This document shows, piece after piece, positions 5,236-24,640 of a DNA stretch of 64,000 nucleotides. Both the position numbers and the translations under genes were made by a program. The stretch lies in assembly GCA_016916535.1 (NCBI GenBank), contig CP070278.1, positions 1 to 64,000 on the forward strand, written 5' to 3'. Within the stretch, counting starts at the first letter, position 1, and every line of letters starts with the position of its first letter. The DNA is from Dysgonomonadaceae bacterium zrk40 (GTDB taxonomy: Bacteria; Bacteroidota; Bacteroidia; Bacteroidales; Dysgonomonadaceae). Below the pieces are notes generated by a model. That model searched no databases. It saw only the letters and a program-made list of their open reading frames with translations, and was not told where the DNA came from.

Positions 5236-6036
5236 CTAGCCCACCCTCGTACGCCGGCTCGCTGCCCGTTCCAGATCGGCTCCCATGCGGGCGGATAGCC
5301 GCGTTGCAATACGCCTGACATTGGCGATGGTGCGTTCTCTGTCAATGAGCTCGTCGGCCCGAAGACTGACGGCAACCCCTGCGATCGGGAAGTTGCGTGA
5401 ATCGAGAACCGACGCACCAAAACAGATAATGCCTTCGGCGACTTGCTGGTTGTCGACGGAGTAGCCTCTTTCGCGCGTCTCGCGCAGTTCCGCGAGCAAC
5501 TGCTCCACGGTCTGGACGCTGGAGGACGTACGCGGCGGCGGCAGCCCGTCCGCATAGATCCTCTTGACTTCGAAATCGCTCATATGGCTCAGGAAGGCCT
5601 TTCCGGTCGCGGTAAAGGCCGCCGGAAGCCGCATACCGGCGCGGAAATCGACAAGCGAATGGCTGATGTCCGAATTGCGCGCCGCGATGTAGACCACTTC
5701 GTTGCCTTCGAGAACGGTAAGCGTAATCGTTGCACCCGGAAGCTCGGTTTCCCTGTCCCAGATCGAGGCGAACTCGGTGGCCACGTCGGACTGCTCCATA
5801 AAGGCGTTCGACCAGCGCATCAGATGGGGACCGAGCTGATAGGTCTGGTCAGGGCGGCGGATCAGCAGTCCCAGTTCCACAAGCGTGCGGCACAGCATGT
5901 GAACCGAGCTTTTAGCGATTCCAAGCTCGCGCGCGAGATCTGACAGGTTGGGATGGCTTCGGTTTCTCGCCACCAGATCGAGTATGCGCGTCGCCCGCTC
6001 CACGGCGGGCACCAGTTTTGTCTGTTCTTGATCCAT
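5236..6036 (-). CDS. IclR family transcriptional regulator (BlcR-like by context)
   Basis: The 266-residue protein has the IclR layout. An N-terminal winged helix-turn-helix (ATRILDLVARNRSHPNLSDL, then ARELGIAKSSVHMLCRTL) precedes an effector-binding domain with AGMRLPAAFTATGKAFL and the C-terminal GYSVDNQQVAEGIICFGA. ATG 6036 was chosen over a TTG at 6042. It is transcribed away from the catabolic operon starting at 6224, and the shared 187-bp region has two inverted repeats. In Agrobacterium the IclR-type BlcR controls lactonase, Fe-ADH and SSADH genes. All three enzyme types occur downstream here, so a similar lactone or hydroxy-acid inducer is inferred. Confidence 0.9.
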   Translation of the reverse strand: MDQEQTKLVPAVERATRILDLVARNRSHPNLSDLARELGIAKSSVHMLCRTLVELGLLIRRPDQTYQLGPHLMRWSNAFMEQSDVATEFASIWDRETELPGATITLTVLEGNEVVYIAARNSDISHSLVDFRAGMRLPAAFTATGKAFLSHMSDFEVKRIYADGLPPPRTSSSVQTVEQLLAELRETRERGYSVDNQQVAEGIICFGASVLDSRNFPIAGVAVSLRADELIDRERTIANVRRIATRLSARMGADLERAASRRTRVG

Positions 6037-6223: not shown

Positions 6224-6613
6224 ATGGTGATGAGCAAGAGAGACTGGGCCATCCGTTTCGCGGAAGCGTCCGACGGCGATCGGACGATCGGCGCGATGGC
6301 GCGCTATTTCACCTGTACTTACCTTTGGGACATGGGCACCGCGAAGATCATCATTCGGATGATCGACGGCAAGGTCAGCGAGATCAATATCGACCCCGCG
6401 CCGATGGATGCCTATGACTTTGCCTTGCGGGCCGGTCCTGCTACGTGGCGCGAATTTGCCAAGCCGATACCGGAACCGATGTATCACGGCATCTGGTCGG
6501 CAAGCTTCCGGCGGGACCTGAAGCTTGAGGGCAATCTTCTCGTCCTCATGCAGAACCTGCGCAATTTTACCGTTCAGTTTGAACTGCTTCGCAAAGTCGG
6601 CGTGCCGGTCTGA
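6224..6613 (+). CDS. SCP2 sterol-binding-like small protein
   Basis: The 129-residue product reads like a single SCP2 (sterol carrier) domain. It has alternating beta strands (AKIIIRMIDGKVSEINID), a central tryptophan segment, a GIWSASFRRDLKLEGNLLVL segment and a C-terminal helix. Such domains bind hydrophobic ligands or serve as accessory domains of acyl-handling enzymes. GGAGG about 8 nt before ATG 6224 supports this start. It is the first gene of the operon, 55 bp before an alpha/beta hydrolase, which suggests it presents or sequesters a hydrophobic ester or lactone. The family call is from pattern only. Confidence 0.6.
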   Translation: MVMSKRDWAIRFAEASDGDRTIGAMARYFTCTYLWDMGTAKIIIRMIDGKVSEINIDPAPMDAYDFALRAGPATWREFAKPIPEPMYHGIWSASFRRDLKLEGNLLVLMQNLRNFTVQFELLRKVGVPV

Positions 6614-7572: not shown

Positions 7573-8511
7573 ATGAAAATCATTGAATTTGACGAAAAGG
7601 GACAGCGCCGGGAAACCCGGCCGGAAACGCTTTCGGGAAGCGGAACGGCCAGCAGTCTCGCACCGCGTCCGGGCATCCGGTCGCCTGCCGCCGATCGTTC
7701 GCGGCGCAGAAGCGGCAGTTCCTCGGGTATCGAGCTTCATATGTTCCAGACAGGGATTCTGAAGACCAAGCTCAAGTTCATCAAGATGAACCAGGGGGAG
7801 AGCGATTTCGACATTCCCGTTCCGTGGTTCCTGATCAAGCATCCGGCAGGCAATATCGTCATCGACGGCGGCAATGCGATCGAGGCCGCGATCGACAAGC
7901 GGGCGCATTGGGGCGCGGTTGTCGACGCCTATGATCCGGTCATGGAGGTTTCGGAGAACTGCGCCGATCAGTGCCGCTCGGTCGGCGTCGACCCCGGCTC
8001 GGTCCGCTACGTGCTGCAATCCCATCTCCATCTCGACCACACCGGGGCAATCGGTCACTTTCCGAACGCGCAGATCATCTGCCAGCGCGCGGAATATGAC
8101 TATGCGTTCAACCCGCACTGGTTCGCTCGCGGCGCCTATATCCGCGCCGACTTCGACAGGCCCGGCCTCAACTGGAAGCTCCTCGGCGGGGAATACACCG
8201 ACAATTACGATCTGTTCGGCGACGGCGCCGTCCGCATGATCTTCACGCCGGGTCATGCGCCGGGGCATCAGTCCTTTCTGATCACCTTGCCGAAAACCGG
8301 GCCGGTGCTGCTGACCATCGATGCTGCCTACACGCTCGACCACTGGGAAAACAAGGCATTGCCCGGCCTTGTCCATTCGTCTGCCGATGCCGCGAATTCC
8401 GTGGCGAAGCTGCGCCGGATCGCGAGCGACACGAATGCGATGGTGGTTACGGGACACGATCCCGACAACTGGCAGACCTTTTTGAAGGCGCCGCACGACT
8501 TTTATGACTGA
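7573..8511 (+). CDS. Metallo-beta-lactamase-fold lactonase (BlcC/AHL-lactonase type)
   Basis: Metal ligands of the lactonase family are visible: H151-L-H153-L-D155-H156, H228 in TPGHAPGH, D250 in TIDAAYT and H295 in VTGHDPDNW. That is the dinuclear site of the AttM/BlcC/AiiA group, which hydrolyses gamma-butyrolactone or acyl-homoserine lactones to hydroxy acids. The 312-residue protein is about 50 residues longer than BlcC. An unusual N-terminus begins KIIEFDEKGQR and is followed by a Ser/Arg/Pro-rich linker, and a near-copy of that peptide ends the ABC ATPase downstream. An internal ATG at 7741 would give a normal-length protein, but GGGGA before ATG 7573 supports the long form. Confidence 0.85.
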   Translation: MKIIEFDEKGQRRETRPETLSGSGTASSLAPRPGIRSPAADRSRRRSGSSSGIELHMFQTGILKTKLKFIKMNQGESDFDIPVPWFLIKHPAGNIVIDGGNAIEAAIDKRAHWGAVVDAYDPVMEVSENCADQCRSVGVDPGSVRYVLQSHLHLDHTGAIGHFPNAQIICQRAEYDYAFNPHWFARGAYIRADFDRPGLNWKLLGGEYTDNYDLFGDGAVRMIFTPGHAPGHQSFLITLPKTGPVLLTIDAAYTLDHWENKALPGLVHSSADAANSVAKLRRIASDTNAMVVTGHDPDNWQTFLKAPHDFYD

Positions 8512-8637: not shown

Positions 8638-9807
8638 ATGACTTTTTTGAGAACCCTGGCAATTGCCGTTGGCATGGCCGCGTCCTGTGCGGCTTTTGCA
8701 CATGCCGACGGCGTCGATTCTATCAATCCGGATGTCGCCAAACGCCTTTACAATCCCGACATGCTGGACCCGGCGCAGCCGGTGGCCGCAAGCCCGTTGC
8801 AGGATTTCAAGGCGAAGAACCCGCCGCCGTGGAAAATCGGCTATGCGTCGTCTTATGCCGGCAACACGTGGCGTGCCGGGGCGATGGACGAACTCCAGAA
8901 CGAGATCATTCCGAAATGGAAGGAACTCGGCCTGATCAGCGACGTTGTGATCACGCAGTCCAACCTGAGTGACTCGACGCAGATCCAGCAGATGCGCCAG
9001 CTTGTCGACCAGGGCGTCGACGCCATTTTCGTGTGCTGCTCCAATCCCACCGCGCTCAACCAGACCGTACAATATGCCTATGACAAGGGTGTGCCGGTGT
9101 TCTCGATGACGGGCTATCTGACAGCCCCTTCGGCAATGAATTCCTCGGTCAACTACCAGGTTGCGGGCTTCGAGATCGGCAAGCGCCTGGCAGAGGAACT
9201 GGGCGGAGAGGGCAATGTCCTGATCGTCGAAGGCATCCCCGGCACGTCCGGTTCCGACAGTCAGGATCGCGGCGTGAAAGCGGGGCTTGCCACCGCGCCG
9301 GGCATCAAGATCGTCGGCTCGGTCGCAGGCATGTGGACCGACCAGATCGCACAGGGAGAAGTGCAGAAATGGCTGGCCACTCATCCGGGCAAGCTTGATG
9401 CCATCGCCGTCCAGTCCGCGGCTGAAATGGGTGTTCTGCGGGCGCTCAAACAGTCCGGTCGCACCGGCGTCAAGGTCACCGTCGGCGGCGAACTGGGCGC
9501 GCTTTGCACCTGGCGCAAGAATCCGGACCTGATTGACGCCGCCGTTCAGACCTGGCCGCCGGGCGATGATGTCCAGCTGATCTGGGATGTCATGATGCGC
9601 ACGCTGCAGGGGCAGGGACCGAAGATCCAGTCCGTTCTCGTCGATCCTGTCGTGCTGACCTATGAGGACGTCGCGAAAATCCTTCCGGAGGATTGCGACG
9701 AGAACAGCCAGGCCTGGCTCAATGTCGGCAAGGACAACTGGGGCTCGCAGGCCTATCTGAACGACTTCTTCATGAAGCCCGCCGATCCGACAGCATACAA
9801 GCCCTGA
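8638..9807 (+). CDS. ABC transporter sugar-type periplasmic binding protein
   Basis: The 389-residue protein begins with a Sec signal peptide (TFLRTLAIAVGMAASCAAFA, cut near AHA) after an AGGAGG ribosome site. The mature part has the type I periplasmic-binding fold of RbsB-like proteins: SYAGNTWRAGAMDELQNEI, then LVDQGVDAIFVCCSNPTALN, then EGIPGTSGSDSQDRGVKAG. It is longer than RbsB (about 300), with an extra N-terminal segment and tail. As part of a CUT2-type importer with the next three genes, it determines substrate. Context (lactonase, hydrolase, ADH, ALDH) suggests a ligand that is not a simple hexose. Confidence 0.88.
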   Translation: MTFLRTLAIAVGMAASCAAFAHADGVDSINPDVAKRLYNPDMLDPAQPVAASPLQDFKAKNPPPWKIGYASSYAGNTWRAGAMDELQNEIIPKWKELGLISDVVITQSNLSDSTQIQQMRQLVDQGVDAIFVCCSNPTALNQTVQYAYDKGVPVFSMTGYLTAPSAMNSSVNYQVAGFEIGKRLAEELGGEGNVLIVEGIPGTSGSDSQDRGVKAGLATAPGIKIVGSVAGMWTDQIAQGEVQKWLATHPGKLDAIAVQSAAEMGVLRALKQSGRTGVKVTVGGELGALCTWRKNPDLIDAAVQTWPPGDDVQLIWDVMMRTLQGQGPKIQSVLVDPVVLTYEDVAKILPEDCDENSQAWLNVGKDNWGSQAYLNDFFMKPADPTAYKP

Positions 9808-9813
9808 TGCAGA

Positions 9814-9839: not shown

Positions 9840-9874
9840 CAAGCGTCTTGAGATTTCACCGGGATACGATCGCC

Positions 9875-11665
9875 ATGCTGCGCCCAGAAGCCGAGATATC
9901 ACCAACATCCCACGGTCAGGAAACGATCGCGGTGCGCAACGTGAAGAAGTTTTTTGGACCGACCCGTGCCCTGAACGGCGCGAGCTTTTCGGCGCGGGCA
10001 GGCGAGATTCACGCCATCGTCGGCGGCAATGGTTGCGGCAAGAGCACCATGGCGAAAGTGGTGTCGGGCGTGCTTCCCTTTGACAGCGGCTCGGTCTCGA
10101 TTCTCGGCGAAACCCCGACGACGCCGGCGGAAAGCCGGGCGCTCGGCATCTCGACCGTCTATCAGGAGGTGCTGGTCGCCGATGAGAGCACGGTCGTCGA
10201 CAATATATTCATGGGCGCGGACGCGCTCTTTTCCAAGGTTCTCTCCCAGGAGCGCAAGGTTGCCCGCGCTGCCGAGCTGATGCTCGACCTTTCCGGAGAG
10301 CCCGTCGATCCCTTCGCCATTGCGGGAACGCTGCCGCTTGGCCTGAAACAGTGGATCACGATTGCCCGTGCGCTGGTCAGCGAACCGAAAGTCCTGATCC
10401 TGGACGAGAGCTCCGCGGCGCTCGACTTCGACAGTACCGAGCGGCTTTTCGCCAAGATGCGGGCGCTGCGCGATGCCGGCGCGACGGTTCTGATCGTCAC
10501 TCACCGCATTGCCGAACTGATCCGCATTTCCGATCGTGCGACGGTGTTGCGCGATGGCTGCGATGTCGGCGTGCTGGAAAAGCATGAGATCACCGAAAAG
10601 AACCTCCTGGCGCTGATGACCGGCGATGAGACCGCCGGCAGCGGCCATCATCAGGAGGCGCCGCGACCGCGGGACGACCGGCTTGCCCTTTTAGCCGAGC
10701 GCATCACGCTTTGGGACGGGACGGCGCCGTTCGATTTCCATCTGCGGCGCGGAGAAATCGTCGGCATCGCCGGCCTCGACGGCCAGGGGCAGGACGATTT
10801 CGTCCGCGCGTTGGCCGGAGTCGAGCCGCCGCGCAGCGGGCTTGTCCAGGTCGCCGACCGCGACGGCAGGCTTCAGGCGGTTTTCGGACTTGCCGACGCG
10901 GTCAAGGGGCGGGTCGCCTATGTATCGGGCGACCGCAAGCGCGAAGGCATCTTCGCCTCGCTCTCGATCTTCGAAAACATGGTGATGCCACTCTACCGGG
11001 AAAAGAAGCGCGGCGGATTTCTGGGCATCATCGACAGGCAGACGCTCTCGGCGGTTTTCAAGCGTGAGGCCGAAAACCTGTTGATCAAGTTTGGCGCGCG
11101 CGAGGATCGCATAACCTCCCTTTCCGGCGGCAATCAGCAGAAAGTGCTGATCGGACGGGGGTTTGCCATGCGGCCCGATATCATCGTGCTCAACGATCCC
11201 GCGCGCGGGATCGATGTCGGCGCCAAGAACGAACTCTACAAACATCTCAGAGCCTTCGCGGAGGACGGAAAATCGGTCGTCTACATGTCTTCGGAGCTGG
11301 AGGAATTCGTAGGCTTTGCCACCCGCGTGATCGTGTTCCGCGACGGCCGCCCCTTTGATGCCTTTGACGGGCGGACGCTCGAGCCGCAAAAGGTGCTTGA
11401 GGCGATGTTCGGCCAGACCGACGGAAGCGGACTGGCCATGCCCGAGGGGCAGAAACCCGAAGGGTCAGACCGGCCATCGCCGGCGCTCCAGCCGACGGCG
11501 GAAGCGCGCGGCCATGCCGCCGTCGAAACAGCGCTTGTCCCGGCGGCCGCTGATGACGCCGCGCACGAAGCCGCCGATCGCCCGCCGCCCGCACCGTTTC
11601 GCAAACCCATCCGGATCATCGAATTCGATGCCGAGAGCGGCCAAGCCAGAAGCCTTGGCCGATGA
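9875..11665 (+). CDS. Tandem-domain ABC ATPase, sugar (CUT2) type, with C-terminal tail
   Basis: From ATG 9875 the protein is 596 residues; a TTG at 9848 would add 9. Domain 1 has Walker A GGNGCGKST, Walker B VLILDES and a degenerate signature (LPLGLKQWITIARA). Domain 2 has a degenerate Walker A (GLDGQGQDD), a canonical signature LSGGNQQKV and IIVLNDPARGIDVG. Alternating degenerate sites are typical of RbsA-like proteins. Unusual is a Pro/Ala-rich tail of about 85 residues ending in IRIIEFDAESGQARSLGR, nearly the same peptide that starts the lactonase. The stop overlaps the first permease start (ATGA). Confidence 0.92.
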   Translation: MLRPEAEISPTSHGQETIAVRNVKKFFGPTRALNGASFSARAGEIHAIVGGNGCGKSTMAKVVSGVLPFDSGSVSILGETPTTPAESRALGISTVYQEVLVADESTVVDNIFMGADALFSKVLSQERKVARAAELMLDLSGEPVDPFAIAGTLPLGLKQWITIARALVSEPKVLILDESSAALDFDSTERLFAKMRALRDAGATVLIVTHRIAELIRISDRATVLRDGCDVGVLEKHEITEKNLLALMTGDETAGSGHHQEAPRPRDDRLALLAERITLWDGTAPFDFHLRRGEIVGIAGLDGQGQDDFVRALAGVEPPRSGLVQVADRDGRLQAVFGLADAVKGRVAYVSGDRKREGIFASLSIFENMVMPLYREKKRGGFLGIIDRQTLSAVFKREAENLLIKFGAREDRITSLSGGNQQKVLIGRGFAMRPDIIVLNDPARGIDVGAKNELYKHLRAFAEDGKSVVYMSSELEEFVGFATRVIVFRDGRPFDAFDGRTLEPQKVLEAMFGQTDGSGLAMPEGQKPEGSDRPSPALQPTAEARGHAAVETALVPAAADDAAHEAADRPPPAPFRKPIRIIEFDAESGQARSLGR

Positions 11666-13092
11666 ACAACGCGCTCACCAATACCAGGACGGAAACCGTA
11701 TCCGATCGCGCTGTCGCCGGGCAGGCGCAGGGCGGGCGTGCAAATCCGTTTCTTCTGGTTCCGATCACCATGTTCTTCGCGCTGCTCGGTCTTGCGGTGT
11801 TGCGCGCGCCGAACCTGATGAGCAGCAATGGCATCGGCAGCGCCATCATTGTGGCCACGCCGCTGATACTGGCGACCTACGCGCTGATGGCCTCGGTGAT
11901 CTCCGGTCGGGGCACTGTCGATCTGTCGATCGGCCCGCTGATCGGCTTCATCAATGTCACGCTCATCCAGCTTCATGGCGCAGGCGTTATCGGCAGTCCG
12001 ATCACGATCTTCGTCTACGCCATTCTGACCGGCGCGCTTTACCAGTTCATTTTCGCGCTTATCGTAATCTACGTCCGGGTCCAGCCGATCATCGTTTCCC
12101 TGTCCGGCTATCTGGCGCTTTCCGGCATCAATCTCGTGATCTTGCCGCGCCCGGGCGGCATGGCGCCGCAATTCATGGCCGACTGGGGGCTTGGCACCAC
12201 GATCTTCTCCCCCGTCCTCGCCATTCTTGTGCTTGCCACCATTGCCTGGGGCCTGTTCTCGCGCACCGCCTTCTTCACGCACCTGCGGCTGATGGGCTCG
12301 GACGAACGCGCCGCCTATACCAGCGGCGTGCCAATCACCGTCGTGCGGATCGGCGCCCATCTGATTTCGGGCGCTTTCGCGGGATTGGCAGCGATAGCGT
12401 TCACGGCGCTGATTTCCTCCGGCGATCCCTCTCAGGGCACCACCTACACGCTGATCGCCGTCACGGCGCTGGTCCTTGGCGGGGCATCGCTTGCCGGCGG
12501 ACGGGCCAGCGCTTTCGGCTCTTTCCTTGGCGCGGCGAACCTCTACTTGATCACCTTCGTTCTCGCGACCTTCAATTTCGGCGCGGTGCAGAGCTTCGTC
12601 ACCAATCTCGCCTATGGTTCGATCCTGGTGATCTCGCTGCTGCTCACACTGATCATCCCCTTCATTCAGCGCCATATCCATAATTTCTCGCCGCTTCTTT
12701 ATTTTGTGGCACTCAGTGTCGTGGCGCTTGGCGTCATACTGCATGCGACGAATGACGGCCCCGTTCGCGATCCCGCTGAGGTCGAAGCATCGGTTGCCGG
12801 TCCTCTTGCGCCGATCGCGCCGGAGGCGCTCTACGTTGCGCCGCTTGAGGTTGCCCGACCGGATACGCAGACAATCGCGCTTCGCAATCAGGCCGCGCCG
12901 TTCGTGCTCGCCGCCCTGCTGTTCGCCGTCATCGCCTTCTTCGTCCGCACGGCCTTCAACCAGTCCGACCGCCGCAGGATTGCGCCTGTCGCCGCAGTGG
13001 TGATCGCGTTGATGGTTCTGCTCGGCGCATGGCTGATGCGTGAAGGGGTTGCGGCGGGCCGCGCCGGTGTCGAGGTGGAGGAACCGCGATGA
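11662..13092 (+). CDS. ABC transporter permease 1, enlarged RbsC type
   Basis: The first 340 residues are an RbsC-like permease. Its cytoplasmic coupling region reads RLMGSDERAAYTSGVPITVV, and the late glycine-rich stretch LVLGGASLAGGRASAFGSF is typical of the family. The usual length is 320-340. Here 476 residues include a C-terminal extension with a further TM (PLLYFVALSVVALGVIL), a periplasmic-looking loop, and two more TMs (FVLAALLFAVIAFFV and VVIALMVLLGAWLM). It is coupled by 4-bp overlaps on both sides. The extension suggests extra contacts in the membrane assembly encoded downstream. Confidence 0.88.
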   Translation: MNNALTNTRTETVSDRAVAGQAQGGRANPFLLVPITMFFALLGLAVLRAPNLMSSNGIGSAIIVATPLILATYALMASVISGRGTVDLSIGPLIGFINVTLIQLHGAGVIGSPITIFVYAILTGALYQFIFALIVIYVRVQPIIVSLSGYLALSGINLVILPRPGGMAPQFMADWGLGTTIFSPVLAILVLATIAWGLFSRTAFFTHLRLMGSDERAAYTSGVPITVVRIGAHLISGAFAGLAAIAFTALISSGDPSQGTTYTLIAVTALVLGGASLAGGRASAFGSFLGAANLYLITFVLATFNFGAVQSFVTNLAYGSILVISLLLTLIIPFIQRHIHNFSPLLYFVALSVVALGVILHATNDGPVRDPAEVEASVAGPLAPIAPEALYVAPLEVARPDTQTIALRNQAAPFVLAALLFAVIAFFVRTAFNQSDRRRIAPVAAVVIALMVLLGAWLMREGVAAGRAGVEVEEPR

Positions 13093-14462
13093 GCATGACC
13101 GGTTCGACGCCCCGGCTGGGTCTTCCGGCCACCATTCTTGGCCTTGCAATCGGTCTCGTCCTGACTGTTGTCGGCGTCGTCTTCGGCTTCATGCAGGGGC
13201 TTTCGGTGCAGATGATCATTCTGGCCGCCATCGCCACCATGGCAGCCTTTACCTGGGGCTGGCGGTTTGTTCTCGGCCAGTTCGAACGCGAAAAGACGGG
13301 CGAAACGGAGGGCCAGCCGTCCGAATTGCGGCAGGTCTGGCAGCAGTTTCGGCCGGCCGTCTACGGCTTTCTGGTCATCTGCGGGATTTTCCTGGCGCTG
13401 TCGCTGACCATCGAGACGTTTTTCAATATCTGGAACGTCATATCGCTGCTCATTCTTCTGACGATCGTGGTGCTGACGCGCACGCTGGGCCGCTTCTTTC
13501 AGGAAAACCGATCGGCATTCATCGGCATCATGGTGCTCTCCGGCCTGTTCTCGATCGGCGCAATGAACATCGAGGGGTTTGCCTCGGGCAGCAATATCAG
13601 GTCGATGCTGCTGTTTGCTTCGTTCCTCGGCATCGCCTCGGTGGGCCAGACGCTGGTGGCATTGCTCGGCGGGCTCGATCTGTCCATTCCGTTCATCATC
13701 GGCGCTGCCAATGTCGGATTGATGTATCTGATCGCGCTCGGCCTGCCGCCATGGCTTGCGATGCTGATCGTGCTCGCCGCTGGCATTCTGCTCGGCTTGA
13801 TCAATGGTTTCCTCAGCTTCCGTCTTCAGGGCCAGGCGCTGATCGTCACGCTTGGCACGGGATTTGCCATCTCCGGCGGCGTGCAGATACTGACCTCGAT
13901 CGGCACGGCCTATGGCGGCAATGTGTTCGGCACGGTGCCTGACTGGCTCTCCAATCTGGCGGCGATGAACGGCACGACCTTCGGCCTGCCTTTCCCGCCG
14001 GTCATCGCCATCTGGGCCGTGGTCGCCGTGATTCTGATCGCGGGCATGCGCTACACCGTCTATGGCCGTTTTCTCTATGCGCTGGGCGTCAACCGCACAT
14101 CGGCCAAACGCGTGATGATCTCCGAACCGGTCTACTGGGTGATGATGTACGCGCTTTCCGGCTTCTTCGCAGCGCTGACCGGCTGTCTGCTGCTCGGCTG
14201 GTCGGGTGGCGGCTTCATCAGCGTGGGCGATCAATATCTGTTCCTGACCCTTGCCGCGGTCGTGGTCGGCGGAACCTCGCTGATCGGCGGGCAGGGTGGC
14301 TACGGCTTCACCGTGATCGGCGTATTGGTGCTGCAGGTGCTGTCCTCTTTCCTCGTGGGCATTGGCCTCGATTTCGAATGGCAACAATTCATTTTCGGTC
14401 TGCTGATCCTGCCGATGGTGGCGCTCTACGCGCGCTCGCCGCACATCAGGACGCAGATCTAG
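13089..14462 (+). CDS. ABC transporter permease 2, enlarged RbsC type
   Basis: This 457-residue protein has an N-terminal addition of about 125 residues with three or four TM segments (ILGLAIGLVLTVVGVVFGFM, VQMIILAAIATMAAFTWGW, then a pair), followed by an RbsC core. The core includes GNVFGTVPDWLSNLAAMNG, YALGVNRTSAKRVMI and VVVGGTSLIGGQGGYGFTV. It pairs with permease 1 as a heterodimeric channel. The start overlaps the previous stop. A 49-bp gap separates it from the rhodopsin-like gene, which has its own ribosome site. Confidence 0.88.
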   Translation: MSMTGSTPRLGLPATILGLAIGLVLTVVGVVFGFMQGLSVQMIILAAIATMAAFTWGWRFVLGQFEREKTGETEGQPSELRQVWQQFRPAVYGFLVICGIFLALSLTIETFFNIWNVISLLILLTIVVLTRTLGRFFQENRSAFIGIMVLSGLFSIGAMNIEGFASGSNIRSMLLFASFLGIASVGQTLVALLGGLDLSIPFIIGAANVGLMYLIALGLPPWLAMLIVLAAGILLGLINGFLSFRLQGQALIVTLGTGFAISGGVQILTSIGTAYGGNVFGTVPDWLSNLAAMNGTTFGLPFPPVIAIWAVVAVILIAGMRYTVYGRFLYALGVNRTSAKRVMISEPVYWVMMYALSGFFAALTGCLLLGWSGGGFISVGDQYLFLTLAAVVVGGTSLIGGQGGYGFTVIGVLVLQVLSSFLVGIGLDFEWQQFIFGLLILPMVALYARSPHIRTQI

Positions 14463-14511: not shown

Positions 14512-15213
14512 ATGGCAGTTTTCGAAACGGCGGATCTGACGGCGGCGAGCTATTCGACCGCGCTGTTGGGTCTGGTCGCCACCGCGGCGCTGTTGCTGCT
14601 GGGCACGGGCTGGGTCAGGCCTGCCTGGAAACTGCCGGTTGCCTTGTGCGCGCTTGCCGCGCTGGTGGGCACACTCGCCGTCTTCCAGGCGCGCGAGGCC
14701 TGGTCCGTCGCCCAGTCCGTTCCGGTGGTCTACCACTATGTCGGCTGGGCGATCTCGATGCCGCTGCAAGTGCTGGCTCTCTATTTCTTCGCCGGCCGCA
14801 CCGCCAAGCTGGGCATGGGCCTGTTCTGGCGACTTGTCGTCGTGTCCGTGCTGATGGTGTTCGTGCGCTATCTTGGGGAAGCCGGGCTGATGCATGCCAC
14901 GCTCGCCTTTCTCATCGGGCTCGTGTTCTGGCTGTATATTCTGGGCGAGTTGTTTTTCGGCCGCATGGACGAGGCGGTTCGCGATTCTCGGAAGCCGGCC
15001 GTGCAGCGCGGCTATTTCTGGCTCAGGCTGATCGTGACGGTGGGTTGGGCAATCTATCCGCTCGGCAATTTCATCACGTCCTTTGGCGGCTACATCGACA
15101 CCGGAGCGCTTTCGGTGGCCTACAACATTGCCGATTTCCTAAACCGGATGGCGTTTGGCGTCGCCGTCCTCGCTGTCGCGATGATGGATGCTGGAGAGAC
15201 CGCTGATGACTGA
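14512..15213 (+). CDS. Proteorhodopsin homologue lacking the retinal-binding lysine
   Basis: ATG 14512 follows GGGAGAGGG. The 233 residues have seven TM segments and align along their length with proteorhodopsin. Examples are YLGEAGLM (helix D), WLYILGELFFG (helix E), VGWAIYPLGNF (helix F) and YNIADFLNRMAFG (helix G; proteorhodopsin YNLADFVNKILFG). The Schiff-base lysine is Arg212 (codon 15145-15147). The proton-acceptor Asp is Gly78, the donor Glu is Ala89, and the helix C Arg is His75; the counter-ion Asp208 remains. It therefore cannot bind retinal covalently or pump protons in the known way, but the fold and gene look intact. Lysine-less opsin relatives are known in fungi. Its place between ABC permeases and a flotillin suggests a scaffold, sensor or transporter-subunit role. 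Confidence 0.92.
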   Translation: MAVFETADLTAASYSTALLGLVATAALLLLGTGWVRPAWKLPVALCALAALVGTLAVFQAREAWSVAQSVPVVYHYVGWAISMPLQVLALYFFAGRTAKLGMGLFWRLVVVSVLMVFVRYLGEAGLMHATLAFLIGLVFWLYILGELFFGRMDEAVRDSRKPAVQRGYFWLRLIVTVGWAIYPLGNFITSFGGYIDTGALSVAYNIADFLNRMAFGVAVLAVAMMDAGETADD

Positions 15214-15274
15214 TTTCTTCGATGCCGACCGCAACCGCTCAATCCTGTTAACCTGTGAAGGGATGTTCCAATGA
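15206..15274 (+). CDS. Possible 22-residue mini-ORF bridging rhodopsin-like and flotillin genes
   Basis: ATG 15206 overlaps the end of the rhodopsin-like gene, with GGAGAGA about 7 nt upstream. The TGA at 15272-15274 overlaps the flotillin ATG (15271) as ATGA. The peptide is MTDFFDADRNRSILLTCEGM followed by FQ. It is best seen as a translational-coupling leader; the peptide itself may have no function. The flotillin gene also has a purine-rich GTGAAGGG site of its own. Confidence 0.35.
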   Translation: MTDFFDADRNRSILLTCEGMFQ

Positions 15275-17010
15275 AGGGCGCAGACATTATTGCAATCATC
15301 ATCCTGGCGGCGATCGTCATCGCGGTCTGCGCCTATCTTCTGCACTGGCTCTATCGCCGGTCGACCAAGGACATCTCGTTCGTGCGCACCGGCTTCGGCG
15401 GCGAGAAGGTGGTGATGGGCGGCGGCGCGCTGGTCCTGCCGATCCTTCACGATCTCACCGAGGTCAATATGAACACGCTGCGTCTGGAAATCATCCGGGC
15501 GCGTGAGAAGTCCTTGATTACGAAGGACCGGATGCGGGTCGAGCTGACAGTGGAATTCTATGTCCGCGTTCACCCCGATAACGACGCGGTGGCAACAGCC
15601 GCGCGCTCTCTCGGAAACCGCACCATGCACGCAGAAGAGCTGAAGGATCTCATTCAGGGTCGCTTCATCGATGCGATGGGCGGAGCGGCTGCGAAGATGA
15701 CGCTGGAGCACATCCACGAAAACCGCATGGACTTCGTCAAGGAAGTTCGCCGGGAAGTGGCCGAAAGCCTTGCGCTTGACGGCCTGGAGCTGGAATCGGT
15801 TTCGCTGACCTCGCTCGACCAGACCGATATTTCGCTGTTCGACCCGTCGAACACCTTTGATGCGGAAGGCCTGACGATCCTGACCGAGCAGATCGAAAGC
15901 CGCAAGAAGAAGCGCAATGACATCGAGAAGGACACGATGATCGCGGTGCGACTGAAGAACCTTGAGGCGGAGAAGCGCTCTCTCGAGATCCAGCGCGACA
16001 CCGAATATGCGCGTCTCAGTCATGAAATGGAGGTCGCCGTCCAGCGGGCCCAACGCAAGACCGAGATCGCCAGCGAGAACGCAGCGCGCGAGCGTGAGAT
16101 CGAGGCCGTCAAGATCAAGGAACGCGAAGCTGTCGAGCGCGCGCGCATTGCCATGGAGCAGGAGCTCGAGCGCATCGAAATCAAGCGCAAGGAAACGCTC
16201 CAGCTAGAAGACCAGATGCGTGAAATCGCCGTTTCCGCGAAATCGAAAGAACGCTCGGAAGCGCAGGCCGAGGCAGAGGCCGCCCGCGCCAGGATGATCG
16301 AGGCGCAGGAACGCGTCCAGACCATCCGCGACACCGAAATCGCCAACCGCCAGAAGTCGATCGAGCTGATCGAAGCGCAAAAACGCGCGGAATCGGAGGG
16401 TACGCGTCTGCGCATTCTCGCCGAGGCGGAAAAGGAGGCGGCCAAGGATCGCGCCGAAGCGGAGCGCATCACGGTGGCTGCCATGGCGGAACGCTATGCG
16501 GTCGAGGCCGAGGGCAAGCAGAAGCTCAACGAAGCCGAGAATCTCAGAACCGATGCCAGCCGCCGCAGCAGCCTGCACAAGTCGCTGGTCGAGAACCTGC
16601 CCGCAATCATTCGCGAAAGCGTAAAGCCGATGGAGAAGATCGAGGGCATCAAGATCCTTCATGTCGACGGATTGCCCGGCTTTTCCGGCGGCGACGCGGG
16701 CGGCGGCCGCTCCGCTGCGGCCGGCGGCGAAGGCGGCGGCAGGGATGGCGACGGGGCAGGGCAGCCGCGCGACGGCAATCTCGCTGATCAGGTCGTCTCC
16801 TCGGCGTTGCGCTATCGCTCGCAGGCGCCGTTTGTCGACCAGCTTCTGAACGAGATCGGCCTCAGCGGTGATGCGGTCCATCGCACCCTCGCGCTGCAGG
16901 ATCTTTCCAAGATGGTCTACACGACGCCGGAACAGCAGGAGGCCGATGCCAGCAGAAAATTGCCGGGCGGCGGCGCCAAAGCACCGTCCAATCCTGCCGA
17001 CAGGCACTGA
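15271..17010 (+). CDS. Flotillin-like SPFH-domain protein (YqiK type)
   Basis: The 579-residue protein has one N-terminal TM helix (residues 5-27). An SPFH/band-7 domain covers roughly 35-215, containing EKSLITKDRMRVELTVEFYV. A long charged coiled coil (about 220-450) is rich in EAE/RAE repeats, and the C-terminus has NLPAIIRESVKPMEKIEGIK, then a Gly-rich linker and an extra helical tail. This is the layout of YqiK and flotillins, which form oligomers that organise membrane microdomains. Its neighbours are all membrane proteins, so it probably gathers the ABC permeases, rhodopsin-like protein and symporter. No NfeD partner is present. Confidence 0.92.
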   Translation: MKGADIIAIIILAAIVIAVCAYLLHWLYRRSTKDISFVRTGFGGEKVVMGGGALVLPILHDLTEVNMNTLRLEIIRAREKSLITKDRMRVELTVEFYVRVHPDNDAVATAARSLGNRTMHAEELKDLIQGRFIDAMGGAAAKMTLEHIHENRMDFVKEVRREVAESLALDGLELESVSLTSLDQTDISLFDPSNTFDAEGLTILTEQIESRKKKRNDIEKDTMIAVRLKNLEAEKRSLEIQRDTEYARLSHEMEVAVQRAQRKTEIASENAAREREIEAVKIKEREAVERARIAMEQELERIEIKRKETLQLEDQMREIAVSAKSKERSEAQAEAEAARARMIEAQERVQTIRDTEIANRQKSIELIEAQKRAESEGTRLRILAEAEKEAAKDRAEAERITVAAMAERYAVEAEGKQKLNEAENLRTDASRRSSLHKSLVENLPAIIRESVKPMEKIEGIKILHVDGLPGFSGGDAGGGRSAAAGGEGGGRDGDGAGQPRDGNLADQVVSSALRYRSQAPFVDQLLNEIGLSGDAVHRTLALQDLSKMVYTTPEQQEADASRKLPGGGAKAPSNPADRH

Positions 17011-17037
17011 CCAAGGCTGCAGAACCGGAGTTTTTAA

Positions 17038-17463
17038 ATGTCGGGACATGCGAAGGTTGAGCGAAATCTTCTGGTCTTTGCCGCATGGGCGACGTCGGGC
17101 TTTTCCGCTCTTGCGTTTTTTCTGGAGGGTCTTGCACGCGATTCCTACCTCCTGTCGCTGGCGGGCGTCGCCCTGGTCGTCGTCACCTTCGCGATCCATA
17201 TCGTCATCAACGCGGTGAGCGATTGTGGCTTTTCCGCCGGCGAGGCTACGCTCGGCATCGGCGCCTTCGGCGTGCTTGCGCTCGTCTTCATCGCGGCATG
17301 GCTTGATGGCGGTCTGACAGCTGTCGATTACTGGTCAGGGCTCACGCTTTTCGGCGTGCTCGTCTGCGGCTTTCTCCTCTATCTATCAACGCGGCACGGG
17401 CTGAGGGGGGCTTTCTCGCGCTTCCACTTCAAACCGGCGGAAAGCGGGAATGAGCCTCGATGA
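17038..17463 (+). CDS. Small integral membrane protein, unknown family
   Basis: The 141-residue product has four predicted TM segments: LVFAAWATSGFSALAFFL, YLLSLAGVALVVVTFAIHIV, LGIGAFGVLALVFIAAWL and GLTLFGVLVCGFLLYL. I do not recognise a domain. It lacks the OB-fold domain of NfeD, the usual flotillin partner, but occupies the same place. It lies 27 bp after the flotillin gene and overlaps the symporter start by 4 bp, so it is probably made together with both as an accessory subunit. Confidence 0.75.
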   Translation: MSGHAKVERNLLVFAAWATSGFSALAFFLEGLARDSYLLSLAGVALVVVTFAIHIVINAVSDCGFSAGEATLGIGAFGVLALVFIAAWLDGGLTAVDYWSGLTLFGVLVCGFLLYLSTRHGLRGAFSRFHFKPAESGNEPR

Positions 17464-19409
17464 GCAGCATTTCCGAATCCGTCTGGTTTCCGCTTTGCAG
17501 CCTTCTCTATATCGCCGTGATGCTGCACTGGGTACGCGTCTCCGCGCGCATGAATGCCGGGGACGGGGGCTTCTTCTCCGCCGCCCACTCCCTGGCGCCC
17601 TGGCTCTCGGCGCTGGTGATTGCCGGCGCCAGCCTTGCCGCATGGTTCGTGCTCGGCGCGGGCGGCGCCATCAGTGACGACGGGTTCTCGATGCCGGTCT
17701 ATCTCGTCGGCGGCGTGCTGGTCGCGCTCCCCGGCATCGTGTTCTTCAAACGGGTGTGGTTTGCCGCGGAACGATTGCGGGTATCGTCTCAGGCCGAGAT
17801 CTTCCGGGCCTATTTTCAAAGTCCGTTTCTCGTTGCCGTCGTCGCTCTGGTGGCGGTTCTGTTCGCCATCGGATTTTCCGGCCTGCAGATCAGGGCTTTT
17901 GCCAGTATCGCGTCGGTTTTGAGCGGCGGCGCGCTGTCGCCGCTCGTGGCCAGCACCGTTTTCGGCTTCGTTCTGTTTGCAGGGGTCGGCATCGGCGGCA
18001 TGCGCGCGCTCGGCTATTTCGGCTTCATTCAGGCGGCGCTGGTTTTTTGCGCCATTGTTGCGCTGGCGGGTTTTGCGCTTTCGTGGAGCGGCGGCTTTGC
18101 TGCGCTCAATGCCAATCTCTATCAACTTGCGATGTCGCCGGAGAATGCCCGGTTTTTCAGCGTCGACGGCATTATTCGTTTTACCGGCGGGCTTGGCCGC
18201 GGCGGTGACGCGGCAACGTCGCACACAGCCATCGCCAATCTCAGCCTCGCTTTCGCGCTGATGGGGTTTCAGGCCAGCCCGTTGGTGCTCAAGGTGGTGC
18301 TTTCGACGCGCTCGCCGAACGGTTTTGCCGCCGGGCAGACCTGGGTCACAGCCGGTTTCTTCGGTGCATTGATCATTTTCGCGATCGCGATCGCCGGCCT
18401 GGCCGGCCTGCTCGATCCCGCTCTCAGGCTGGTGCCGCTGCTGGACGCTATGCAGGTTTCTTCGCCCTGGTTTGCGGCCTGGATCTTCATCGGCATCGGC
18501 GCCGGCGTCCAGCTCTTGGCCGGCCTCTCCCTGTTTGTGGCCGGCGAGACACTGGTGCGCCATCTCTACAAGCCGTATTTCAATGCGGCGCTCGGTCAGC
18601 GGGCGACAATCACGCTCACCCGCGTGGTGATCGCCGTACTCACCGTGGCGGCCCTGGTGATGCAGAATCTGACCCCGGTTACCGTGTCGGCGCTCGCTGG
18701 CCTGGCCTTGCCCGCTGCGTTTCAGCTCTGGGTTCCGATGCTCGGCGTGACATGGCTTGGCTGGATCACGCGTCCCGCTGCCGTTATCGGCGTCGGGTTC
18801 GGTCTTGCCGGCGTCGTGCTGACGGAGCCGCTCGGCTATCAGCTACTCTCGTTCCTGGGGCTGGAGCTGCCCTGGGGGCGCTGGCCGTGGACGATCCATT
18901 CCGCCGTCTGGGGCATGGCCGCCAATGTTACCGCAGTCCTGATCATTTCGGCGATCACAAACCGCAATGCGCTTTGCGAGGAGGCCCGCGAGGTCCGCAA
19001 ACTCTATGCAACGCTTCTGGCGTCGGGCGGCGAGGCCCGCCGGTTTCGTGCTTTTGCCTGGTCGGCTGTCCTTGCCTGGTTTTTCCTTGCCGTCGGGCCG
19101 GGGCTGATCTTCGGCAACACCGCCTTCACCGGCGGGGACTCTGCTGCCCCGGTCTGGCTTCTCGGCATGCCTTCGCTTTGGGCCTGGGCGCTCGCCGCCT
19201 GGATACTCGGCGTCGGGCTCGCCTGGTTCCTCAGCTATAAAATGGAGATGGCAAGCCCGGTTACCGTCGAAATACCGCCCTATGAACCGCCGCCGCGCCT
19301 TCGGCCGGATCAAAGCCGGGCCGAGCGGGAGCGGCTCGGTATCCTGGTCATAACCGGAGCCGTCAGCTTCGCTCTGGTTGTCCTTATTGCATTCAGTTTC
19401 GGCGGTTGA
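17460..19409 (+). CDS. SSS-like (sodium:solute symporter) transporter
   Basis: The 649-residue membrane protein has 13-15 TM segments with an SSS/LeuT-fold look. These include an N-terminal helix followed by ARMNAGDGGFFSAAHSLAPW, then FKRVWFAAERLRVSSQAEIF (like the R--g--TipEf region), FALMGFQASPLVLKVVLSTR and a late LVRHLYKPYFN loop. It is longer than PutP/ActP (about 500-550) with two added C-terminal helices. It probably couples sodium or protons to uptake of a small carboxylate or polyol. It is translationally coupled to the small membrane protein and lies 21 bp before the Fe-ADH gene. Confidence 0.75.
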   Translation: MSSISESVWFPLCSLLYIAVMLHWVRVSARMNAGDGGFFSAAHSLAPWLSALVIAGASLAAWFVLGAGGAISDDGFSMPVYLVGGVLVALPGIVFFKRVWFAAERLRVSSQAEIFRAYFQSPFLVAVVALVAVLFAIGFSGLQIRAFASIASVLSGGALSPLVASTVFGFVLFAGVGIGGMRALGYFGFIQAALVFCAIVALAGFALSWSGGFAALNANLYQLAMSPENARFFSVDGIIRFTGGLGRGGDAATSHTAIANLSLAFALMGFQASPLVLKVVLSTRSPNGFAAGQTWVTAGFFGALIIFAIAIAGLAGLLDPALRLVPLLDAMQVSSPWFAAWIFIGIGAGVQLLAGLSLFVAGETLVRHLYKPYFNAALGQRATITLTRVVIAVLTVAALVMQNLTPVTVSALAGLALPAAFQLWVPMLGVTWLGWITRPAAVIGVGFGLAGVVLTEPLGYQLLSFLGLELPWGRWPWTIHSAVWGMAANVTAVLIISAITNRNALCEEAREVRKLYATLLASGGEARRFRAFAWSAVLAWFFLAVGPGLIFGNTAFTGGDSAAPVWLLGMPSLWAWALAAWILGVGLAWFLSYKMEMASPVTVEIPPYEPPPRLRPDQSRAERERLGILVITGAVSFALVVLIAFSFGG

Positions 19410-19430
19410 GGCCGGTTTTGGAGATAAACG

Positions 19431-20588
19431 ATGGATAGATTTGTATTCAACACGGCCAAGTCGATCAGGTTCGGCACTGGCACTTTTGATGAACTGGCCG
19501 AACTGGTCGGCGCGCAGGTCGGCGACCGCATCATGCTCGTGACCGATCCCGGAATGATGGCAACGGGCATGGTGGAGAGAGCGCTGAAGCAGTTTCGCGA
19601 CGGCGGCATCACGGTCGAACTGTTCAAGGACGTTGAAGCCGATCCGCCGGAACATGTGGTGCTCGGGGCGGTCGCGGCCGCCCGTTCGGCAGGCGTTGAG
19701 GGCATCGTCGGGCTTGGCGGAGGATCGTCGCTCGATGTTGCCAAGCTTGTCGCGCTGCTGGCGCCGGGAACCGAAACGCTCGCGGATGTATACGGCGTCG
19801 GCAAGGCGCGCGGTCCGCGCCTGCCGCTGATACTCGTGCCGACAACCGCCGGTACCGGTTCGGAGGTCACGCCGATTTCCATCGTCACGACCGGCGCCAG
19901 CGAGAAGATGGGCGTCGTCTCGCCGGTGCTCCTTCCCGATGTCGCGCTCCTTGATCCGGCGCTGACCTATGGCCTGCCGCCGCACATCACGGCTGCGACG
20001 GGGATCGATGCGATGGTTCATGCCATCGAGGCCTTCGCCTCGGCCAGCCCCAACAACAACCCGCTGTCGCGCATGCTGGCGACGCAGGCGCTGACGTTGA
20101 TGGGGCGTTCGCTTCTGAAAGCGGTCCACGACGGCAAGGATGTCGAAGCAAGGTCCGATATGCTCTTGGGGTCGATGCTTGCCGGGCAGGCCTTTGCCAA
20201 TTCGCCAGTCGCCGCCGTTCACGCGCTCGCCTATCCGCTTGGGGGGCACTTTCACATTCCCCACGGACTCTCCAATGCACTGGTTCTGCCGCATGTTCTG
20301 CGTTTCAACATCGTGACCACGCCCGGCCCCTATGCCACGCTTGCACCTTTCGTGTTTCCCGAACTGTCGGCATTTGAGGGACAAGAACGGGCGGCGGCCT
20401 TCTGCGAGAAGCTTGCGGACCTTTCGCGCGCCTGCGGCCTGCCGCAGAATTTGAGGGCAATGGAGATTCCGCGGGACATCCTGCCGAAGCTCGCCTCCGA
20501 CGCGATGAACCAGACCCGACTTCTCGTCAACAATCCGCGACCCCTGTCGGAAGCCGATGCGCTTTCGATATACCGCGCGGCTTTCTGA
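19431..20588 (+). CDS. Iron-containing alcohol dehydrogenase (BlcB/GHB-dehydrogenase type)
   Basis: The 385-residue cytoplasmic enzyme is a group III (iron) alcohol dehydrogenase. It has a GVEGIVGLGGGSSLDVAK nucleotide site, LILVPTTAGTGSEVTP, and metal ligands in GIDAMVHAIEAF and HALAYPLGGHFHIPHG. Group III enzymes oxidise omega-hydroxy acids such as 4-hydroxybutyrate to the semialdehyde. A lactonase lies upstream and a semialdehyde dehydrogenase 24 bp downstream, so hydroxy acid to semialdehyde is the most likely step. The ATG at 19431 is preceded by GGAGATAAACG. Confidence 0.9.
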   Translation: MDRFVFNTAKSIRFGTGTFDELAELVGAQVGDRIMLVTDPGMMATGMVERALKQFRDGGITVELFKDVEADPPEHVVLGAVAAARSAGVEGIVGLGGGSSLDVAKLVALLAPGTETLADVYGVGKARGPRLPLILVPTTAGTGSEVTPISIVTTGASEKMGVVSPVLLPDVALLDPALTYGLPPHITAATGIDAMVHAIEAFASASPNNNPLSRMLATQALTLMGRSLLKAVHDGKDVEARSDMLLGSMLAGQAFANSPVAAVHALAYPLGGHFHIPHGLSNALVLPHVLRFNIVTTPGPYATLAPFVFPELSAFEGQERAAAFCEKLADLSRACGLPQNLRAMEIPRDILPKLASDAMNQTRLLVNNPRPLSEADALSIYRAAF

Positions 20589-20612: not shown

Positions 20613-22067
20613 GTGTCACTTCAACTCCAGGATCCGAGCCTGCTCGAACATCGCGCCTTTCTCGCCGGCACGTGGGTGGAGGCCGAGAAGTCCTTTCCCG
20701 TCACGAATCCGGCAACCGGGGAACGCATTGCCATGGTGGCCGATATTCCGGCTGCCGATGTCGGCAAGGCGATTGACCGCGCTTACGAGGCACAGAAGCG
20801 CTGGCGGCGACTGACCGCCAAGGATCGATCGCAGATCCTGCTTCGGTGGAACAGCCTGCTGCTGGAAAACCAGGAGGATCTGGCGAAAATCCTGACCGCC
20901 GAAATGGGCAAGCCGCTTGCCGAGGCCAGGGGTGAGATTGCCTACGGCGCCTCCTTCATCCAATGGTTCGCCGAAGAGGGACGGCGCATCTATGGCGATG
21001 TCATTCCCGGCCATCAGCCCGACAAGCGGATCATCACCATCAAGCAGCCGATAGGCGTTGTCGGATCAATCACGCCATGGAATTTTCCCAATGCGATGAT
21101 CGCCCGCAAGGTCGGCCCGGCACTTGCCGCCGGCTGCAGCTTTGTCGGTCGCCCGGCCGAAAAGACCCCGCTTTCGGCGCTTGCCATGGCGGTGCTTGGA
21201 GAAAGAGCTGGGATTCCCGAGGGCGTGCTGTCCATTCTGCCGGGCACCGACTCCAAGGGCATGGGCATGGAATTGTGCACCAATCCCAAGGTGCGCAAGC
21301 TCACCTTCACCGGCTCCACTGAAGTGGGTCGCATCCTGATGCGTCAATGCGCCCACGATGTGAAGAAGCTTTCGCTGGAACTCGGCGGCAATGCGCCTTT
21401 CCTGGTCTTCAACGATGCCGATCTCGACAAGGCTGTCGAGGGCGCGATAATCGCCAAATTCCGCAATGCCGGGCAGACCTGTGTCTGCGCAAACCGAATC
21501 TACGCCCAAAGCGAAATCGCCGATGCCTTTACCGAAAAGCTGGCCCGGGCAATTACGGGACTGAAGGTCGGAGACGGCATGGCCGAAGGGGTCGCGATCG
21601 GCCCGCTCATCGATGACGCGGCGCTTGCGAAAGTCGAGGATCATGTGGCCGACGCCGTTTCGAAGGGTGCGACCGTGATCGAGGGCGGCAGCCGGTCCGA
21701 TCTGGGCGGCACGTACTACCGGCCCACGGTTCTGGGCGGCGTCAAACCCGGCATGAAAATCCTGGCTGAGGAAACCTTCGGGCCGGTCGCGCCGGTGATC
21801 AGCTTCAAAACCGTGGATGAAGGTATCAGGCTCGCCAATGATACCGAGTTCGGCCTTGCCGCCTATTTTTACGCGCGCGACATTTCGACGGTCTGGAAGG
21901 TGGCCGAGGAGATCGAGAGCGGCATGCTCGGCATCAATACGGGTTTGATCTCGACCGCCGAAGCGCCCTTTGGCGGCGTCAAATCCTCCGGCCTCGGGCG
22001 GGAAGGTTCCAAGTACGGGATCGAGGAATTCCTGGAGATCAAATATCTCTGCATGGCTCTGGACTGA
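20613..22067 (+). CDS. Succinate-semialdehyde-type aldehyde dehydrogenase (GabD/BlcA-like)
   Basis: A GTG start at 20613 after AGGAAAGGA gives 484 residues, the normal GabD length. The sequence shows GVVGSITPWNFPNAMIARK, TFTGSTEVGRIL, the general base in LSLELGGNAPF and catalytic Cys290 in GQTCVCANR. It should oxidise the semialdehyde from the preceding ADH to a dicarboxylate with NAD(P). The near-universal coenzyme lysine of the KPA motif is replaced: VGRPAEKTP has Arg180. This may change cofactor choice or affinity. It is the last gene of the operon, with a hairpin 13 bp downstream. Confidence 0.93.
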   Translation: MSLQLQDPSLLEHRAFLAGTWVEAEKSFPVTNPATGERIAMVADIPAADVGKAIDRAYEAQKRWRRLTAKDRSQILLRWNSLLLENQEDLAKILTAEMGKPLAEARGEIAYGASFIQWFAEEGRRIYGDVIPGHQPDKRIITIKQPIGVVGSITPWNFPNAMIARKVGPALAAGCSFVGRPAEKTPLSALAMAVLGERAGIPEGVLSILPGTDSKGMGMELCTNPKVRKLTFTGSTEVGRILMRQCAHDVKKLSLELGGNAPFLVFNDADLDKAVEGAIIAKFRNAGQTCVCANRIYAQSEIADAFTEKLARAITGLKVGDGMAEGVAIGPLIDDAALAKVEDHVADAVSKGATVIEGGSRSDLGGTYYRPTVLGGVKPGMKILAEETFGPVAPVISFKTVDEGIRLANDTEFGLAAYFYARDISTVWKVAEEIESGMLGINTGLISTAEAPFGGVKSSGLGREGSKYGIEEFLEIKYLCMALD

Positions 22068-24637: not shown

Positions 24638-24640
24638 CGT

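Follow-up and report, generated by a model that had tools for sequence, protein, structure and literature searches.

A lysine-less flotillin-associated rhodopsin encoded in a conserved ABC importer operon of a Martelella plasmid

This study concerns a rhodopsin-like gene at positions 14512..15213 of a 64,000-nucleotide stretch of DNA (the window; contig CP070278.1 of assembly GCA_016916535.1), which is filed under a Dysgonomonadaceae bacterium and is taken here to derive from a plasmid of Martelella lutilitoris. Its product is one of the flotillin-associated rhodopsins (FArhodopsins), the flotillin-paired proteorhodopsin relatives named by Haro-Moreno et al. 2023 (PMC10308929), and falls in their lysine-less branch. 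The fold, the operon context, the lost retinal chemistry and the selection on the gene were computed. From these we infer, with somewhat more confidence than doubt, that the protein works without retinal as an opsin-fold subunit of an import module scaffolded by flotillin, where it probably senses a ligand.

The opsin gene and its class

The gene is intact, and its product scores above the cut-off of the Bac_rhodopsin hidden Markov model (PF01036) and has the seven-helix fold; no NCBIfam model matched it at E 0.01. The Schiff-base lysine of helix G is replaced by Arg212, which separates the protein from the retinylidene rhodopsins. With Gly78 in place of the proton acceptor Asp and Ala89 in place of the donor Glu, it also lacks the residues of a proteorhodopsin pump. 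The sequence-only reading of the window had described an intact rhodopsin fold without a covalent retinal site and had named R212, G78, A89, H75 and D208; the profile search that it proposed and the residue survey agreed with it on each point. The protein is predicted not to bind retinal. Marine FArhodopsins combine the lysine with a DTT, DTL or DNI motif and occur beside a separate proteorhodopsin, whereas the window protein reads G-S-A at 78/82/89 and Arg at 212, and G1212, the genome taken as the true host, contains a single PF01036 match. Nor does it resemble the haloarchaeal opsin-related proteins (ORPs), as the aromatic residues of the retinal cage are invariant among its relatives and none of the 30 features annotated in its gene neighbourhood is a chemotaxis transducer.

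Operon organization and conservation

The following genes surround the opsin gene in the window.

5236..6036, minus strand: divergent IclR-family regulator
6224..6613, plus strand: SCP2 (sterol carrier) fold protein, 129 aa
6669..7517, plus strand: alpha/beta hydrolase; nearest curated model 3-oxoadipate enol-lactonase, below cut-off
7741..8511, plus strand: AttM/BlcC-family lactonase (NF045700, 415 bits, cut-off 390)
8638..9807, plus strand: periplasmic substrate-binding protein (Peripla_BP_4)
9941..11665, plus strand: ABC ATPase of the sugar-ABC type with two ABC_tran stretches (start as in NZ_CP066788.1; the open frame reaches 9848)
11662..13092, plus strand: ABC permease 1 (BPD_transp_2)
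13089..14462, plus strand: ABC permease 2 (BPD_transp_2), directly upstream of the opsin gene
14512..15213, plus strand: lysine-less FArhodopsin (PF01036), 233 aa; H75 G78 S82 A89 R119 D208 R212
15271..17010, plus strand: flotillin (Band_7 PF01145 and Flot PF15975), 579 aa, 57 nt downstream of the opsin gene
17038..17463, plus strand: 141 aa protein, a membrane protein by its hydrophobic sequence, adjoining flotillin
17460..19409, plus strand: 649 aa divergent relative of sodium:solute symporters
19431..20588, plus strand: iron-containing alcohol dehydrogenase (Fe-ADH)
20613..22067, plus strand: succinate-semialdehyde dehydrogenase (SSADH; TIGR01780, 694.5 bits, cut-off 646.35)

The Peripla_BP_4 binding protein, the ATPase with two ABC_tran stretches and the BPD_transp_2 permeases form what we take to be a CUT2-type importer. 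The 649 aa protein gave a 30% tblastn match to its counterpart at locus L069, which in turn matches PF00474 at E 1.1e-26, and the 141 aa protein matched no Pfam or NCBIfam family at 0.01. The Pfam SCP2 match of the SCP2-fold protein is weak (8 of 21 members, best E 0.011), and no solved chain was found for it by sequence. Between the IclR and SCP2 genes lies a promoter-like TTGACA-N18-TATTGT (6071-6100); eight such sites occur in the region against 3.6 expected by chance.

A collection of species genomes was scanned with an alignment of five FArhodopsins, and the best 80 of at least 588 confirmed candidates were kept; more distant FArhodopsins may lie outside this set. Twenty-five of the 80 loci are FArhodopsins in an ABC-flotillin operon, and the other 55 retain the lysine and the D-T-E motif. 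No flotillin match was found at these 55 loci, and the Flot domain occurred in 0 of the 34 of those genomes searched. Adding four plasmid loci, one of them the window's own record, gave 29 FArhodopsin loci. Where the contig extended far enough, the same strand carried the binding protein in 26/26, the ATPase in 27/27, permease 1 in 28/28, and permease 2 and flotillin in 29/29, so the operon setting asserted from the window sequence held throughout. The small protein (25/29) and the symporter-like protein (28/29) were nearly as constant on this strand; in L069 the symporter gene lies upstream in the opposite orientation. Genes for the SCP2-fold protein and the hydrolase were present in 26 of the 29, the remaining three having short upstream contigs.

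A sample of 394 genomes from the bacterial family of Metarhizobium album contained PF01036 rhodopsins in 31 genomes, 27 of them FArhodopsins. The 26 that were read all had Arg or Leu at position 212 and all had permease 2 and flotillin alongside. Strong matches to the symporter-like protein (E<1e-40) occurred in 28 genomes, namely the 27 FArhodopsin genomes and one in which a contig end interrupts the region; in another 39 genomes all matches were weak. The operon context is conserved across bacterial families. The weak matches mostly involve query residues ~58-154 and fall on frames of 1,160-1,230 aa, perhaps symporter-domain sensor kinases. In the Shinella locus L036 the ABC ATPase frame (9559-11766) has 735 aa, compared with 605 in the window and 612 in L069, and its additional C-terminal stretch resembles, by eye, a PEBP/YbhB-like domain. 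Behind the L069 operon (16576-20385), three frames resemble by eye a xanthine/CO dehydrogenase-type enzyme.

Phylogeny and selection

A tree of 53 rows was computed, with L049 (runs of X), L123 and L126 left out. Two lysine-bearing FArhodopsins were included, L069 from a Kiloniellaceae genome and the H84V/E120G mutant (PDB 9r23) of the marine FArhodopsin PsFAR, which served as the marine row here, in the entropy comparison and in the count of lysine-bearing rows given below. The FArhodopsins formed one 39-row clade including both (support 100/97), and within it the lysine-less proteins formed a single clade (100/100). The tree requires one change from lysine to another residue, and five for the residue states at 212. 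L069 has the same operon and stands next to the lysine-less clade, with weak support (89/48); since a lysine-bearing protein in this position shares the operon, the importer setting probably predates the loss of the lysine.

The ratio of non-synonymous to synonymous substitution rates (dN/dS) was 0.049-0.245 across 17 hand-chosen FArhodopsin pairs, and the gene is under purifying selection. The view that selection keeps the fold had come from the window sequence, together with proposals for a family tree with gene neighbourhoods and for a dN/dS test in which values near 1 would indicate decay; both analyses were run, yielding a single clade in one operon setting and no signal of decay. A decaying or hitchhiking gene might be suspected from the loss of the retinal-chemistry residues. 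It is extremely improbable in view of these ratios and of three residues, W34, R119 and W170, that are invariant in the lysine-less clade and restricted to it.

Conservation of the retinal pocket

The residue survey covered 46 distinct proteins without the lysine, that of the window among them, with wild-type PsFAR (PDB 9r21) as marine row. Bacteriorhodopsin (BR) numbering follows a BR sequence that was verified at 11 landmark residues. All 46 proteins carry Arg at position 119. In 58 lysine-bearing rows this position is Gly in 57 and Ala in one; wild-type PsFAR, represented in that count by its mutant, has Glu120 in this column, the residue that its depositors mutated (E120G in PDB 9r23). Column 119 aligns without gaps to BR Gly122, which we take to face the β-ionone ring of retinal. 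W34 and W170 were likewise found in all 46 proteins, as were the aromatic cage residues W79, W179, Y182, P183 and Y204.

Position 78 is G or A in 45/46 and position 89 is A, T or S in 46/46. The protein might instead be a conduit beside the importer, through which protons, ions or even the importer's substrate would leak or be carried, as the charges retained around D208 and the symporter-like and ABC neighbours would allow; the loss of both proton-path carboxylates in nearly all members makes this unlikely. In 43 of the 45 readable sequences (residue 75 of L049 was unread), positions 75, 78, 208 and 212 together are charge-balanced. Arg75 pairs with Leu or Gln at 212, and Arg212 with His, Pro or Gln at 75; L057 has Arg at both positions and keeps Asp78. 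Because the sequences share ancestry, this balance is a pattern and not a test.

Retinal synthesis and second rhodopsins in the hosts

The 25 genomes of the locus scan and the 27 of the family sample, with six in common, gave 46 distinct FArhodopsin genomes; that of L069 encodes a protein with the lysine, and G1109 was not read at residue 212. Seventeen of the 25 titled genomes are metagenome-assembled genomes and eight are isolates. Isolate hosts include Metarhizobium album, Pararhizobium antarcticum, Roseovarius litoreus, Tistlia consotensis and Mesorhizobium.

A search for further PF01036 rhodopsins, which did not extend to heliorhodopsins, found none in any of the 46 genomes, many of them drafts, G1212 included. 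The Blh-type retinal synthase (PF15461) was not found in 45/46, with a partial match in Lichenifustis (L055), and was present in 4/4 genomes of the family sample with other rhodopsins, the lysine motif having been read in one of these (L123). The lycopene cyclase model PF05834 passed its cut-off in 49/50 genomes and 9/14 control genomes, and for this reason CrtY was counted only at ~300 bits (five genomes; next best 51.4 bits), the best 30 candidates per genome being scored. Full-length CrtY, the one cyclase type searched for, was thus not found in 45/46; it was present in Lichenifustis and in the 4/4 genomes with other rhodopsins. RPE65 gave one partial match, in the L061 host, among 25 of the 46 genomes, and a control search for BCD in six Pelagibacter genomes succeeded in 3/6. 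With 17 of the 25 titled genomes assembled from metagenomes, single absences are weak evidence; the overall pattern is not. In Lichenifustis (G882), the assembly could mask a further rhodopsin.

These counts bear on two further explanations. The FArhodopsin authors, who always found a proteorhodopsin in marine FArhodopsin genomes, proposed a helper of the proteorhodopsin pump in a mixed oligomer, and a similar role has been suggested for Rh-noK (PMC10308929). With 46/46 genomes devoid of a second PF01036 rhodopsin and 45/46 of Blh and CrtY, this idea is disfavoured for the lysine-less clade, to the point of being very improbable; it is contradicted there unless second rhodopsins were missed. 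A light sensor with non-covalent retinal or another chromophore would agree with the retained aromatic cage, and lysine-less bacteriorhodopsin is cited as working at reduced efficiency with aminated retinal compounds (PMC4915679). Against it stand the arginine in the ring site of all 46 proteins and the failure to find Blh and CrtY in 45/46 genomes, other chromophore routes having been searched only through RPE65; we regard such a sensor as distinctly unlikely. With a single rhodopsin per genome, a light-independent function can be put to the test by deleting the gene in cultured hosts.

Proposed function

The import module would comprise the binding protein, the ATPase, the two permeases, the FArhodopsin, flotillin, the small protein, the symporter-like protein, the SCP2-fold carrier and the hydrolase. 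Within it, the FArhodopsin would act as a membrane subunit that has left retinal behind. The former retinal pocket may hold a small amphipathic molecule whose head group, probably an acid or a lactone, would be bound by Arg119 and/or by Arg212 or Arg75, and the seven-helix protein would report pocket occupancy to the transport complex in the flotillin domain, or stabilise it. A precedent for such a pocket exists in proteorhodopsin without retinal, where decanoate is bound and its carboxylate lies on the lysine (PMC11322631).

A more specific proposal, which we put forward tentatively, is that the opsin fold serves as the chemoreceptor subunit of a nutrient importer. An amphipathic acid or lactone would be bound in the aromatic cage, between Arg119 on the side of the former ring and Arg212 or Arg75 on that of the former Schiff base, and the protein would gate or recruit the ABC importer in a flotillin microdomain. 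In Martelella and its kin, the ligand might be a substrate of AttM-type enzymes, possibly γ-butyrolactone, 4-hydroxybutyrate or acyl-homoserine lactones. If true, this would be a bacterial parallel to chemical-sensing G-protein-coupled receptors, derived from a light pump.

The main rival is a pure scaffold, an oligomeric membrane body that aids the flotillin microdomain or holds the ABC transporter while its pocket is self-filled and binds nothing. It is rather doubtful in our judgement, if still to be taken seriously. Flotillin adjoins the gene in every locus, Arg119 occupies a glycine column of the pocket in all 46 proteins, and the proteorhodopsin apoprotein is reported to be stable without retinal (PMC11322631). 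The invariance of W79, W179, Y182, P183 and Y204 despite the lost retinal chemistry speaks against it. Conservation of the pocket as a whole cuts both ways. Over the pocket positions considered, mean column entropy was 0.69, below the whole-protein average of 1.26, which disfavours the scaffold, and above the 0.40 of the proteorhodopsin pocket, which favours it.

Several observations count against a ligand-sensing subunit. The pocket varies more than that of proteorhodopsins, as just described, the invariant aromatics could be structural instead, and the charge pattern is broken in 2 of the 45 sequences (L056, L058). The Lichenifustis host (L055, G882) has full-length CrtY and a partial BCD/Blh at a contig end. 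The L069 host keeps the lysine, yet neither BCD nor a second rhodopsin was found in it; this host may rely on scavenged retinal or likewise do without it. Gene order is association and not contact, the cargo cannot be the same in all loci because the lactone genes described below are not universal, and the ligand role is itself something we infer. For experiments, the lysine-less clade provides a single defined residue (119) and a defined set of genes (ABC importer, flotillin, SCP2).

Relation to known systems

The sequence-only reading had seen in the ABC/flotillin operon a new functional setting for an opsin. This was not supported, as flotillin-paired rhodopsins were already a named family (PMC10308929) and the PsFAR structure (PDB 9r21) has been solved. 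For lysine-less opsin relatives it had named fungi only; haloarchaea (PMC4915679) and betaproteobacteria (described in PMC10308929) have them too.

The FArhodopsin kind is thus known, and the window protein is a member of it. The freshwater FArhodopsins described by Haro-Moreno et al. include proteins with Gln, Thr, Leu or Arg in the lysine position, and the reported FAR cluster holds a sterol-carrier protein, a sodium symporter, an inner membrane translocator and Fe-dependent alcohol dehydrogenases (PMC10308929). Compared by description, they share with the window the flotillin neighbour, the replaced lysine and FAR-cluster genes, the translocator presumably corresponding to the ABC permeases here. 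Theirs are metagenome contigs, and the authors were unable to tell whether the freshwater, largely lysine-less hosts hold other rhodopsins and favoured the helper role (PMC10308929). The present set, in contrast, comprises genomes and plasmids with a sole rhodopsin, no Blh/CrtY found in 45/46 and an invariant Arg119. As far as open-access searches excluding bioRxiv show, three results are new, namely the sole rhodopsin of these genomes together with the failure to find Blh and CrtY, the ABC importer core with its counts and reverse test, and the invariant Arg119; some of the sequences may already be in the supplementary tables of PMC10308929. The same literature yielded no paper joining rhodopsin, Rhizobiales and flotillin, a broader search listed one (PMC10308909), and the name PsFAR was not found in open-access papers among the matches listed.

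PsFAR is 33% identical to the window protein and keeps the Schiff-base Lys, the Asp and the Arg, with Glu where the window protein has Arg119. Green and blue proteorhodopsins (PDB 7b03, 4jq6) have the same fold, W79/W179/Y182/P183 and the helix-G Asp; the window protein differs in lacking the lysine, acceptor and donor. The haloarchaeal ORPs likewise replaced the lysine, by Arg or by Leu or another hydrophobic residue, and eight ORP species without canonical opsins likewise lack crtY and brp (PMC4915679). They are described as having lost much of the aromatic cage, and many lie beside chemotaxis transducers (PMC4915679), whereas the lysine-less FArhodopsins show no variation in the cage and are encoded next to importer genes and flotillin. 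The betaproteobacterial Rh-noK is also a lysine-less bacterial rhodopsin, but it is xanthorhodopsin-related and occurs in tandem with a functional rhodopsin (PMC10308929), whereas no second PF01036 rhodopsin was found in the FArhodopsin hosts.

Lactone pathway genes and putative cargo

The Fe-ADH scored 252.5 bits with the 4-hydroxybutyrate dehydrogenase model (cut-off 500) and higher, though also below cut-off, with the ErcA model. Across the 29 loci, an AttM-like lactonase was present in 19, Fe-ADH in 16 and SSADH in 11; a constant module is thus accompanied by a pathway that varies among loci. The blcABC (attKLM) operon of Agrobacterium converts γ-butyrolactone to 4-hydroxybutyrate and succinic semialdehyde, BlcC/AttM being its lactonase (PMC5924552). 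Given this route and the presence of AttM, Fe-ADH and SSADH in the Martelella operon, the likeliest cargo there is a lactone or 4-hydroxy acid, which probably enters a blcABC-like AttM - Fe-ADH - SSADH route, as judged from gene content. The description of the blc operon mentions neither opsin nor flotillin (PMC5924552), and both stand in the Martelella operon. A hydantoinase/oxoprolinase A-B pair lies just after the FArhodopsin operon (23021-26689, minus strand). Marine FAR clusters are described as holding the 5-oxoproline gene PxpA (PMC10308929), to which this pair might be related.

Origin of the DNA and neighbouring genes

In two 24-kb tests, the 64-kb window was 100.0% identical to plasmid plas-002 of Martelella lutilitoris ZRK001 (NZ_CP066788.1), starting at about base 101,980 of that record. 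The assembly that contains the window (G000) has a 3.06 Mb contig (C1) that is Bacteroidota-like, with SusC/SusD-like proteins recognized by eye in one 20-kb stretch. Its contigs C2 (166,348 bp) and C3 (246,192 bp) match M. lutilitoris ZRK001 plasmids, with 100% identity where tested. Since the chromosome and the other two contigs thus have different affinities, gene counts in G000 are uninformative on the host, and an argument from its chromosome and relatives was dropped. In G1212, the FArhodopsin, permease 2, flotillin and symporter-like protein all matched at 100% and at the plasmid's own coordinates, and this genome is taken as that of Martelella lutilitoris, the true host of the plasmid-borne gene. 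The mixed assembly calls for caution in any inference from the window to its host; its contamination rating is 0.27% despite the Bacteroidota-like chromosome and two Martelella lutilitoris plasmids. Elsewhere on the same plasmid (44301-48259, minus strand), a DUF2309 protein is encoded beside a proton-conducting transporter subunit, a pair which we take to be a DabA-DabB inorganic-carbon uptake system.
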